Of a stretch of 64,000 bases of DNA, positions 10,311-23,839 are shown piece after piece; the first letter of the stretch is position 1, and the number at the start of each line of letters is the position of its first letter. The notes under the pieces were generated by a model. The model worked only from the letters and a program-made list of their open reading frames with translations, was not told the origin of the DNA and did no database searches. This DNA comes from Sinomonas sp. R1AF57 (lineage in GTDB: Bacteria; Actinomycetota; Actinomycetes; Actinomycetales; Micrococcaceae). Made by a program: the position numbers and the translations under genes. The stretch covers positions 154,376 to 218,375 of the forward strand of contig NZ_CP022463.1 of the NCBI RefSeq assembly GCF_002224485.1, written 5' to 3'.

Positions 10311-10359
10311 GGCACCGGACGGCAAACGGTTGCCTCTGCGTGCTCCGCGTCACTAGCGT
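10311..10359 (+). promoter_or_regulatory. Uronate LacI-type operator/promoter A
   Basis: Half-site GGCAC at 10311 lies 10 bases before the palindrome GGCAAACGGTTGCC (10321-10334). The right arm supplies the -35 hexamer TTGCCT (10330-10335). An 18-base spacer and -10 TAGCGT (10354-10359) follow. The ATG of the oxidoreductase is 6 bases after the -10, so the transcript is predicted to be leaderless. The 49-bp layout is shared with sites B-E. Confidence 0.85.
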
Positions 10360-10365
10360 GGTGCC

Positions 10366-11436
10366 ATGCCCACTGACGCGCCTCCCCCGTCCCCGTCCGA
10401 GTCCCTCCGCTCCGCCGTCGTCGGGTGCGGGGACATCTCAGCCCAGCACATCGCGGCGATCACCGCACTGGCCGAGAGCGGGCACGCGAGGCTCGCCGCC
10501 GTCGTCGACCGCGACCCGGGGCGCCGCCGGGCAGCGGCCGAGGCGCACGGCGTCCCCGCCTTCGCGGGTCTCAGCGAGCTGCTCGCGGAGGGGGCGGTCG
10601 ACGTCGTGCACCTCTGCACCCCCCATGGCGACCACGCAGCTCTCGCCGAGCAGGCACTCGCCGCCGGCGTGCACGTCCTGACAGAGAAGCCGGTCGCGCA
10701 CACCCTCAGCGACGCAGAGGCGCTCATCTCGGCGTCAGACCGCGCATGGGCGGACGCCGGCACGCAGCTCGGGGTGTGCTTCCAGAACCGCTACAACGCC
10801 CCGGTGGTGGCCCTGCGCAGGCTCGCGCGAGACGGGGGCCTCGGCCGCATCCTCGGGGCCCAGGCCACAGTCATGTGGCACCGGCCGCCGTCCTACTACG
10901 AGGCGCGCCCGTGGCGGGGCACGTGGTCCGGCAGCGGCGGCGGGCTCCTGATGAACCAGGCCATCCACACCCTCGACCTCCTGCAGTGGCTCGTGGGGCC
11001 GGCGCGGGTGGTGGACGGGCGCGCCTCGACGCGCGCCCTGAAGGGGATCATCGAGGTCGAGGACACCGCGGACATCCTCCTCGAGCATGCCGCGCACGAC
11101 GGCGCCGCCGTCCACAGCGTCTTCTTCGCCACCAACGCGAACGCCGTCAACGCGCCCGTGACCCTCGACATCCAGACCGAGCGGGCGGAGCTGTCCGTCC
11201 GAGGCGCCCTCACCGTGCGGCATGCGGACGGGCGAGTGGAGGTCGTCGAGGAGACCGGGGTGCTCCCGGGAGAGCGCAGCTACTGGGGAGCCTCGCACCA
11301 GCTCCTCATCGCCGACTTCTACCGGGCGCTGGCGGCAGGCGAGCGCTTCTGGATCGGCGCCGAGGAGGCGACTGCCTCCCTGCGGCTCATCAAGGACGTG
11401 TACGCGCGCTCGTACCCCCACGGCGAGTGGGTCTGA
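10366..11436 (+). CDS. Gfo/Idh/MocA-family NAD(P)-dependent oxidoreductase
   Basis: This 356-residue two-domain dehydrogenase has an N-terminal Rossmann fold (SAVVGCGDISAQHIAAI, then VVDRDPGRRR as the adenosine-binding region) and the family catalytic motif TEKPVAHTL with its Lys. The C-terminal sugar-binding domain contains GGGLLMNQAIHTLDLLQWL, with the conserved Asn/His pair. It would oxidise or reduce a cyclic sugar or sugar acid. It is the only gene transcribed directly from operator A and is followed after a short gap by operator B. Paralogues are at 12434, 57234 and 60148. The substrate cannot be read from sequence; control by the same operator as the glucuronate genes suggests a uronate or a sugar derived from pectin or glucuronoxylan. 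Confidence 0.87.
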   Translation: MPTDAPPPSPSESLRSAVVGCGDISAQHIAAITALAESGHARLAAVVDRDPGRRRAAAEAHGVPAFAGLSELLAEGAVDVVHLCTPHGDHAALAEQALAAGVHVLTEKPVAHTLSDAEALISASDRAWADAGTQLGVCFQNRYNAPVVALRRLARDGGLGRILGAQATVMWHRPPSYYEARPWRGTWSGSGGGLLMNQAIHTLDLLQWLVGPARVVDGRASTRALKGIIEVEDTADILLEHAAHDGAAVHSVFFATNANAVNAPVTLDIQTERAELSVRGALTVRHADGRVEVVEETGVLPGERSYWGASHQLLIADFYRALAAGERFWIGAEEATASLRLIKDVYARSYPHGEWV

Positions 11437-11440
11437 ATCC

Positions 11441-11489
11441 GGCAACTCTTGGCAAACGTTTACCGTGCGTTGCTGCCCGTGCCTAGAGT
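11441..11489 (+). promoter_or_regulatory. Uronate LacI-type operator/promoter B
   Basis: Half-site GGCAA at 11441 is 10 bases before the palindrome GGCAAACGTTTACC (11451-11464; one arm is degenerate, TTACC). The -35 TTACCG (11460-11465), an 18-base spacer and -10 TAGAGT (11484-11489) follow. It drives the TIM-barrel isomerase at 11547 with a leader of about 50 bases. Confidence 0.83.
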
Positions 11490-11546
11490 GGATGCACGTG
11501 TGACCGCCGCCACTGTGGCGGCAGATGAGAGCGATTGAGGAGAACC

Positions 11547-21921: not shown

Positions 21922-23151
21922 ATGAAGATCGTCTCCGCCGAAGTCTTCGTGACGAGCCCGACGCGCAACTTCGTGACCCTGAAGATCACCACCGACGAGG
22001 GCATCACGGGCATCGGCGATGCGACGCTCAACGGGCGCGAGCTCGCCGTGGCCGCGTACCTCAAGGAGCATGTCGCCCAGCTGCTCGTAGGCCGGGACCC
22101 GCATCGCATCGAGGACACGTGGCAGTTCCTCTACCGCTCCTCGTACTGGCGCCGCGGCCCGGTGACGATGGCCGCGATCGCGGCCGTGGACATGGCCCTG
22201 TGGGACATCAAGGGCAAGGTCGCCGGCCTGCCCGTCTACCAGCTCCTCGGCGGAGCGTCGCGCAATGGGCTGCGGGCGTACGGCCACGCCTCGGGCACCG
22301 ACATCCCCTCGCTCTTCGACTCCATCCGCGAGCACCTCGAGCTCGGCTACAAGTCGATCCGCGTCCAGACCGCCATTCCGGGCATCAAGGCCGTCTACGG
22401 CGTCGCCGCCCAGGCGCAGTCCTCGGGTGAGCGCTACGACTACGAGCCGGCCGGCCGCGGCGCCTACCCGCAGGAGGAGGACTGGGACACGCGCGCCTAC
22501 CTGCGCCACCTTCCCACTGTCTTCGAGGCCGTCCGCAACGAGTTCGGCCCCGAGATCCCCCTCCTGCACGACGGCCACCACCGCATGACTCCCATCCAGG
22601 CGGCCAAGCTCGGCAAGGCACTCGAGCCCTACGACCTGTTCTGGCTCGAGGACTGCACCCCTGCGGAGAACCAGGAGGCCCTCCGCCTGGTCCGCCAGCA
22701 CACGACGACGCCGCTCGCCACCGGCGAGATCTTCAACACCGTGTGGGACTTCCAGACGCTCATCAAGGAGCAGCTGATCGACTACGTCCGTGCAGCCTCC
22801 ACCCACTTCGGCGGCATCTCGCCGCTGAAGAAGGTCATGGACTTCGCGGCGCAGTACCAGATCAAGTCCGGCTTCCACGGGCCTACCGACATCTCCCCGG
22901 TCGGCTTCGCCGCGCAGCTGCACGTGGGCCTCGCGATCCACAACTACGGCATCCAGGAGTACATGCAGCACTCCGAGAAGACCAACACCGTCTTCGAGCA
23001 GTCCATGACGTTCACCGACGGCTACCTGCACCCGGGCGACAAGCCGGGACTCGGCGTCGAGTTCAACGAGGAGGCGGCGAACTCGTTCCCGTACCAGCAG
23101 GCCTACCTGCCGTACAACCGCCTCATCGACGGCACCGTCCACGATTGGTGA
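21922..23151 (+). CDS. manD: D-mannonate dehydratase, enolase superfamily (ManD/RspA)
   Basis: The enzyme converts D-mannonate to 2-keto-3-deoxygluconate. The 409-residue protein belongs to the ManD/RspA group of the enolase superfamily, not to the UxuA family. It shows the ManD-specific [18 protein letters not shown] (catalytic Arg and Tyr), [11 protein letters not shown] (Asp ligand and catalytic His), [12 protein letters not shown] (Glu) and [12 protein letters not shown] (Glu). Characterised ManD-type proteins vary in efficiency and some also dehydrate gluconate. Its position directly after uxaC and the reductase supports the catabolic mannonate role. It has its own promoter with operator D and overlaps the kinase gene by 4 bases. 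Confidence 0.92.
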
Positions 23152-23675
23152 CCCGCGACGTGTCCGGCACTGCTGAGCCCGTGTTCCGGGTGATCGCCAT
23201 GGGTGTCTCCGGCTCGGGCAAGAGCACCGTCGGCGAGCTCCTCGCGAAGGAGCTCGGCGGTGAGTTCTTCGACGGCGACGACCTCCACCCGGCGGCCAAC
23301 GTCGCCAAGATGGCCGCGGGGATCCCGCTGGACGACGCCGACCGCGCACCGTGGCTTCGCGCCGTCGCCGAGCGCCTGGCCGCCGGGGAGGGGACCACGG
23401 TGGTCGGCTGCAGCGCGCTCAAGCGCTCCTACCGGGACATCATCCGGGCGAGGGTCCCCGAGGTCGCCTTCGTGCACCTGCACGGCAGCCGCGAACTGCT
23501 CGCCGAGCGCATGGCACGGCGGAGCGAGCACTTCATGCCCGTCTCGCTCCTGGAGTCGCAGCTCGCGACCCTCGAAGACCTGGGCCCGGACGAGCGGGGA
23601 GCCGTCTACGACATCGCCGAGCAGCCCGCCGAGATCGCCCACGAGGCGGCAGAGTGGCTCCGCGCCTCCGTCTAG
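23148..23675 (+). CDS. gntK: Gluconokinase-family carbohydrate kinase
   Basis: This 175-residue P-loop kinase has [12 protein letters not shown] as Walker [21 protein letters not shown] (the gluconate kinase signature, including DGDDLHP), the lid-type RDIIRARVP and [12 protein letters not shown]. By family it phosphorylates D-gluconate at C6. The start is a GTG overlapping the manD stop (GTGA), so it is co-translated with mannonate dehydratase. That position is odd, because the product of ManD is 2-keto-3-deoxygluconate, whose usual kinase is a PfkB-family KdgK. Either gluconate is co-metabolised, or this enzyme has taken over the keto-deoxy acid. Sequence alone favours gluconate. Confidence 0.88.
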
Positions 23676-23676
23676 G

Positions 23677-23741
23677 GGTCACCTTCTGGAGGTCACCTCC
23701 TGAGAGTCACATCACGTGACCCACAGAAGGTGACCTCCAGA
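23677..23741. repeat. Phased GTCAC/GTGAC dyad cluster forming a large hairpin
   Basis: Three GTCAC pentamers start at 23678, 23692 and 23706 (14-base period). Two GTGAC pentamers follow at 23716 and 23730 (again 14 bases apart). The arms fold into a perfect 14-bp stem (23685-23698 with 23728-23741), with an inner GTCAC/GTGAC stem. A second register (23677-23688 with 23724-23735, 12 bp) is also possible. It lies just after gntK and before operator E. It may be a terminator or a regulator-binding array. No U tract. Confidence 0.75.
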
Positions 23742-23790
23742 CGTCTGTGGGCGTGACGGTGCCTACGGCACGTTGGCGCATGGCATCATT

Positions 23791-23839
23791 GGCAAATTTT
23801 GGCAAACGATTGCCGCACGCTTGCCGCCGATCCTACGCT
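23791..23839 (+). promoter_or_regulatory. Uronate LacI-type operator/promoter E
   Basis: Half-site GGCAA at 23791 is 10 bases before the palindrome GGCAAACGATTGCC (23801-23814). The -35 TTGCCG (23810-23815), an 18-base spacer and -10 TACGCT (23834-23839) drive beta-glucuronidase with a leader of about 33 bases. The N5 between the two GGCAA copies (ATTTT) is the same as in operator C. Confidence 0.86.

Follow-up and report, generated by a model that had tools for sequence, protein, structure and literature searches.

In a 64,000-nucleotide stretch of the genome of Sinomonas sp. R1AF57 (contig NZ_CP022463.1, positions 154,376 to 218,375, hereafter the window), five promoters carry the same compound element. 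Its core is the inverted repeat GGCAA-NCGN-TTGCC, with fixed spacing and with the right arm at the -35 position, and it is flanked, at about one helical turn, by one or two additional copies of the half-site, an arrangement that is found across species. The gene at 13665-14705 encodes a regulator of the LacI/GalR family, and it is considered, at about even chances, that each site is a compound operator of this protein controlling a glucuronide and glucuronate regulon, with an additional regulator molecule on the outer half-sites.

The sites at 10311, 11441, 14719, 21815 and 23791 had been proposed in a first-pass annotation of the window, made from the letters alone, as copies of an identical 49-bp operator with three half-sites, and all five were confirmed at these positions (Table 1). 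A scan of the window with up to three mismatches returned eight rows, against a mean of 0.33 and a maximum of 4 in 100 shuffles, none of which reached eight; three of the eight rows are cores already counted, read on the opposite strand. What the sites share is a common pattern and not an identical sequence, given that the outer half-site is GGCAC at 10311, the right arm is TTACC at 11441 and the left arm is TGCAA at 21815. As the annotation had described, in all five the outer half-site begins exactly 10 bp 5' of the core, the right arm coincides with the -35 element, and a TANNNT hexamer (TAGCGT, TAGAGT, TAGACT, TAGGCT and TACGCT) begins 19 bases after the right arm. The -10 element of the site at 10311 ends only 6 bases 5' of the ATG at 10366 (window 10354-10368) and, therefore, the mRNA from this gene is probably leaderless. 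The site at 14719 lies between the gene of the solute-binding protein, which follows it, and the divergent lacI-type gene, whose likely start is 13 bp away. An origin of the extra half-site as a by-product of this divergent start was rejected, because four of the five window sites come after a gene on the same strand.

The genome-wide search that had been suggested recovered the five window sites, and it showed that the pattern is not confined to them. In the 3.94-Mb genome, which is a single contig, the 24-bp pattern at up to one mismatch occurs at six places, the sixth of which (C1:309287) is 91 kb outside the window and upstream of another Gfo/Idh/MocA-type gene, with a -10-like GACAAT at the same distance and an additional GACAA that begins 11 bp before the outer half-site. 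The core alone, at the same threshold, occurs at nine places, six of them being the compound sites. The genome has 11 LacI-type genes in total. Upstream of five of the others (L108, L113, L114, L116, and L117), CG-centred low-GC palindromes, six in all, were recognised by eye, and the remaining five have no convincing upstream palindrome. In none of the six palindromes is an arm repeated perfectly 9-12 bp away, on one side or the other; a repeat with a single mismatch is present only for that of L116 (-122), at 12 bp. As far as these six control palindromes go, the extra half-site as a general property of LacI-type operators was rejected for this genome. One of the five genes, L114, is the second LacI-type gene of the window (around 53714-53845, minus strand), and the different low-GC palindrome upstream of it, AACTTTCGAAAGAT, has no extra half-site.

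Conservation of the upstream GGCAA in related genomes, on which the annotation had made its claim depend, was examined on the complete set of perfect cores from 15 genomes of the genus, which was collected irrespective of flanking sequence, and the claim withstood this examination. A perfect outer half-site lies 9-12 bp outside an arm in 40 of the 53 cores, and one with at most one mismatch in 51, while in nine control ranges of offset there were 0 or 1 perfect copies and 1-12 copies at up to one mismatch. In the family, for which 295 genomes were scanned with spacers of one to fifteen bases (N1-N15) allowed between the outer half-site and the core, 87 matches were obtained in 45 genomes, with the spacers N4 (5), N5 (52), N6 (21), N7 (5), and N11 (4) and no others; the reversed pattern gave 2 matches. 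The constant distance of the outer half-site is thus a property of the window that does not extend to relatives, where 9, 11 or 12 bp are also found. A scan of 396 genomes at the level of the order gave 14 matches in other families (N5 in seven, N6 in two, N8 in two, and N9 in three), against 3 for the reversed pattern in the whole scan. A LacI-type helix-turn-helix (HTH) is encoded within 3 kb of ten of these matches, and a uxaC homologue is present at two more (L208 and L212). The N11 matches, which come from four genomes of one genus, and the N8-N9 matches of other families may belong to other systems, and for the N11 arrangement in L135-L138 this is probably the case. Around position 1501 of these four loci, the core and the N11 half-site are part of a longer inverted repeat whose ends are G-rich and C-rich.

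From the 232 LacI relatives found, 80 loci were kept, and in 78 of these a core occurs within 450 bp of the LacI-type gene, the other two being L056 and L069, the latter truncated by the end of its contig. At 9-12 bp, on either side, a further half-site with no more than one mismatch is present in all 10 of the LacI-adjacent cores of Sinomonas (all perfect), in 41 of 41 cores of group A (31 perfect) and in 24 of 27 cores of the more distant, paralogous group B (none perfect), while shuffled flanks gave 1% perfect and 14% at up to one mismatch. The window and the 80 loci together hold 163 cores at up to one mismatch, of which 24 were left out as they could not be oriented by a -10 element (22 with none, 2 with both). 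In the 139 oriented cores, the -10 element starts 18 (79 cores), 19 (57 cores) or 20 bases (3 cores) after the core, and its position, constant in the window, is therefore not always the same in relatives. Removal of near-duplicates left 34 Sinomonas, 22 group A, and 21 group B sites, for which a perfect outer half-site at 9-11 bp was found in 29, 18, and 0 (shuffle means 0.11, 0.02, and 0.04), and one with at most one mismatch in 33, 22, and 8 (shuffle means 1.7, 0.5, and 0.8), respectively. The sites of the more distant paralogues retain the extra half-site solely in degenerate form.

These counts bear on the possibility that the extra half-site has no function and is a relic of shared ancestry, or of a 10-bp duplication, that is recounted in orthologous promoters. 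Such promoters are numerous among those counted and, therefore, the counts are not independent. Nonetheless, the excess of perfect copies over shuffled flanks in Sinomonas and group A is that which remains after the removal of near-duplicates, little information is found further upstream in Sinomonas, and the outer half-site is present at five different promoters of the window. A functionless origin is considered very improbable.

The core itself is rigid, the spacing N4 having been counted 65 times against 0-8 times for each other spacer between N0 and N12. The direct repeat GGCAA-N5-GGCAA was rejected as the primary site, given that, of its 65 occurrences in the window and in 53 loci, 63 are next to a right arm at up to one mismatch, and the central CG is present in 61 of these. 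Besides the third half-site, which was borne out, a fourth that the annotation had overlooked is often present, in the form of a TTGCC on the -10 side, at 10-12 bp from where the right arm begins. It is perfect in 10 of the 22 group A sites (shuffle mean 0.14, with 0 of 2000 shuffles as high) and in 3 of the 34 Sinomonas sites (shuffle mean 0.19, with 2 of 2000 as high). With one mismatch allowed, it is found in 16 and 14 of these sites, respectively, with 0 of 2000 shuffles as high in either group, and in group B there are no perfect copies and 4 of 21 at this threshold. In the window, the fourth half-site is perfect at the site upstream of uidA and has one mismatch at 11441 and 21815, and both flanking half-sites are perfect in 16 of the 71 distinct cores of the family scan. 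Group B loci L078-L106 (minus L087 and L097) have, at about 7550-7900, a second promoter in which GACAA-NCGN-TTGCC is followed, after 6 bases, by an everted GGCAA; this extra half-site in the opposite orientation occurs, with at most one mismatch, in seven of nine non-redundant sites. In L050, L054, L058, L068, L070, L072, L074, L075, and L076, the outer half-site and the right arm are of the GACAA type and the middle arm is GGCAA. These nine loci look like one lineage, and for this reason no conclusion was drawn on a pairing of the outer half-site with the right arm.

The outer GGCAA and the neighbouring T-rich stretch might instead be read by another regulator or by RNA polymerase, in the manner of an UP element, or shape the DNA, its likeness to a LacI arm being secondary. 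The sequence between the outer half-site and the core is T-rich, with TTTT conserved at 86-100% per position in group A, and its location is that of UP elements. In all five window sites the outer half-site is also distal to the -10 element. However, the outer element has the five letters of the arm together with the T that precedes it (before the core arm in 100% and before the outer half-site in 91% of group A), as expected if one kind of HTH reads both, and the element is present on the -10 side too. The TTTT is weak in Sinomonas although the GGCAA is retained, and a partner regulator gene was not identified, a systematic search for one not having been made. A role of this kind is, on balance, improbable.

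The LacI gene at 13665, which had been named as the natural regulator, is the best candidate for this role, given that its relatives carry the same compound site just upstream. The protein has an N-terminal LacI HTH and a periplasmic-binding-protein-like sensor domain, as is proper to the LacI/GalR family, and the five window sites have the form of operators of this family, an inverted repeat with a central CG and with spacing fixed at N4. It is the likely reader of the sites, because the compound site accompanies the lacI-type gene and five other LacI-type genes of the genome have different arms. Its ten closest named relatives, from which the source genome may have been left out, are all from Sinomonas, with best-segment identities of 81-91%. 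A LacI relative of this regulator lies within 3 kb in 15 of the 30 loci that were fetched from the family scan. Among the other 15, a uxuB homologue is found in nine (L118-L121, L124-L126, L128, and L133), with a uidB homologue also in six, while in the four N11 loci, L141, and L147 there is no homologue of the window genes. For five perfect cores that the genus has outside the cluster (L148, L155, L159, L160, and L175), there is no homologue of a window gene within 4 kb. The compound sites of relatives adjoin uxuB, uidB or uxaC homologues, and in the window the models of UxaC, ManD, UidA, and UidB all score above the NCBI cut-offs, so that the regulon served by the compound sites is probably that of glucuronide and glucuronate use.

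In the favoured mechanism, a repressor dimer would bind the core as usual, with the hinge helices at the central CG, and would block RNA polymerase. The outer half-sites would be bound by the same kind of HTH, from an additional regulator molecule next to the dimer on the core; this molecule would most plausibly be a second dimer, gripping the DNA by one HTH and with its hinge unfolded and flexible. The spacing places the outer half-site on roughly the same face of the DNA as the core arm. Repression would become tighter or sharper through the outer contact, and glucuronate or a glucuronide would probably serve as the inducer that frees the assembly.

Several points weigh against this reading. 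The outer half-site directly repeats the adjacent arm; to judge from LacI-DNA structures in general, another dimer bound there in the standard pose would have its centre 10 bp from that of the core-bound one and would overlap it, and it is for this reason that attachment by one HTH on a flexible hinge is favoured. Moreover, 3 of the 27 LacI-adjacent cores of group B have no extra half-site and none of its 21 non-redundant oriented sites has a perfect outer one, 5 of the 14 matches in other families have the spacers N8-N9, which are out of phase with N5, and the fourth half-site is perfect in only 3 of the 34 Sinomonas sites and is absent at 14719.

The main rival is a single flexible dimer that binds in several registers, in a CytR-like manner, with the extra half-sites as alternative landing points for its two HTHs. 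Arms about one turn apart would be paired as direct or inverted repeats, and capture and re-binding would lift the occupancy without a second dimer. This arrangement would be free of the steric clash, and it agrees with a core spacing that is constant next to an outer spacing that shifts by one or two bases. The best match of the HTH region in the PDB is the DNA-binding domain of CytR, a protein reported, in the part of the source available, with inverted or direct half-sites, variable spacers and one helix face (PMC3454398). However, the match is barely above that of LacI (25 versus 24 identities of 53), the CytR model gives the regulator 203 of 436 bits, far under the NCBI cut-off, and the hinge YVPSSQARGL looks LacI-like by eye and seems nearer to LacI-type hinges than to that of CytR. 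The rigid spacing of the core and the rarity of the direct repeat without the full palindrome also speak against it, and a single dimer in several registers is held to be rather unlikely. The alignment of the regulator to E. coli LacI stops at residue 388 of the 411-residue open reading frame (ORF), which presumably leaves little room for a LacI-like tetramer helix.

To come back to the additional regulator molecule, the compound sites, given the arrangement of their half-sites, may be occupied by more than one pair of repressor reading heads. A broader proposal, which is put forward only tentatively, is that a LacI subfamily with the HTH signature GVA-x-STVSRAL-xx-P-x-RV might have operators of three to four phased half-sites, contacted by the HTHs of more than one dimer in a mode outside the standard LacI-DNA geometry. 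In the textbook view, LacI-type repressors are two-armed readers. Here, a conserved natural regulon offers a single extra half-site that can be removed or shifted and, therefore, the accommodation of extra reading heads becomes directly testable. Motif searches for palindromes alone may overlook functional flanking half-sites.

The compound sites resemble the canonical operators of the family in the CG-centred core palindrome, in the site before the regulator's own gene and in their sugar-catabolic targets, and differ from them by the lone half-sites about one turn outside the palindrome. According to the part available of a 2014 survey, the motifs of 1303 LacI-family regulators are palindromes, mostly with a central CG (PMC4052901). 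The survey sought palindromic motifs of 14-24 bp, and flanking half-sites were consequently outside what it sought. In the same part, adjacent LacI-type sites, E. coli gntKU among them, show distance peaks at 13, 22, and 32 bp, and the 13-bp overlaps are called hard to reconcile with the structures (PMC4052901). These overlapping or tandem sites share with the present ones multiple sets of contacts at helical or near-helical spacing and, at 13 bp, a similar steric puzzle; as described there, however, the second element is a whole palindrome at 13, 22 or 32 bp, whereas in the compound sites it is a lone direct-repeat half-site at 10 (9-12) bp. The window sites showed no further full palindrome at 13, 22 or 32 bp. 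Among relatives, L062 (2224-2248) and L028 (19814-19844) are exceptions: in the former, two full core palindromes overlap, 11 bp apart (positions 2224 and 2235), and in the latter, two are adjacent, 17 bp apart (19814 and 19831), with the half-site pattern shared.

CytR, the closest HTH in the PDB by sequence, likewise uses direct repeats and half-sites spaced by one turn; from what is available of its description, it differs in having two half-sites with loose spacing and in acting with CRP (PMC3454398), whereas the compound sites have a rigid CG-centred core with three to four half-sites, and loose core spacing of the CytR type was not seen among the spacers N0-N12. The cre-var sites of CcpA are another case of a LacI-family protein with a non-canonical operator layout, in which the spacer between two inverted repeats varies, and no extra half-site is mentioned in the abstract (PMC5263246). 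The half-sites of another report concern, in the part available, CRP (PMC4693257). In the literature searched, which left most subscription papers outside its coverage and is thus weak evidence on this point, no description was found of a LacI-family operator with a third half-site or with two or tandem dimers.

Table 1. Compound sites and genes of the cluster, in window coordinates.
Feature	Position	Strand	Details
Compound operator/promoter 1	10311..10359	+	outer half-site 10311-10315 GGCAC; core 10321-10334; -10 10354-10359; gene at 10366 downstream
Gfo/Idh/MocA-type dehydrogenase	10366..11436	+	Pfam
Compound operator/promoter 2	11441..11489	+	outer half-site 11441-11445; core 11451-11464; right arm TTACC; fourth half-site TTGCT 11470-11474 (one mismatch); -10 11484-11489; upstream of gene at 11525
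691-amino-acid protein	11525..13600	+	C-terminal part Gfo/Idh/MocA-type
LacI-type regulator	13665..14705	-	likely start 14705; Pfam LacI 63.7 bits and Peripla_BP_3 121 bits, both above cut-off; translation
Compound operator/promoter 3	14719..14767	+	outer half-site 14719-14723; core 14729-14742; without fourth half-site; -10 14762-14767
ATP-binding cassette (ABC) importer solute-binding protein	14843..16210	+	Pfam SBP_bac_1 on longer ORF 14777-16210; start placed after AAGGAGG
ABC importer permease	16215..17195	+	
ORF	16400..18115	+	residues 374-562 match second ABC permease; gene is the downstream part of the ORF
Xylose-isomerase-like TIM barrel protein	18117..18980	+	
Glucuronate isomerase (uxaC)	19014..20432	+	NCBIfam above cut-off
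Fructuronate-reductase-like mannitol dehydrogenase family protein, uxuB-like	20445..21797	+	best match, but under NCBIfam cut-off (256 of 603 bits)
Compound operator/promoter 4	21815..21863	+	outer half-site 21815-21819; core 21825-21838; left arm TGCAA; fourth half-site TTGCA 21846-21850 (one mismatch); -10 21858-21863; upstream of manD
D-mannonate dehydratase ManD	21922..23151	+	NCBIfam above cut-off
Compound operator/promoter 5	23791..23839	+	outer half-site 23791-23795; core 23801-23814; perfect fourth half-site 23821-23825; -10 23834-23839; upstream of uidA
Beta-glucuronidase (uidA)	23879..25705	+	NCBIfam above cut-off on ORF 23747-25705; start read from sequence
Glucuronide transporter (uidB-like)	25730..27163	+	NCBIfam above cut-off

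The genes that had been taken for unknown sugar enzymes are of the Gfo/Idh/MocA dehydrogenase type by Pfam. For the N-terminal 309 amino acids of the 691-amino-acid protein (window 11525-12451), no Pfam family (E up to 0.01) and no PDB sequence match were found. A 37-nucleotide imperfect inverted repeat with 78% complementarity and AGGTCACCT-like units lies at window positions 23669-23743, in the interval from the kinase-like gene (23151-23675) to the uidA promoter, and it is a candidate terminator or a candidate site of another regulator.

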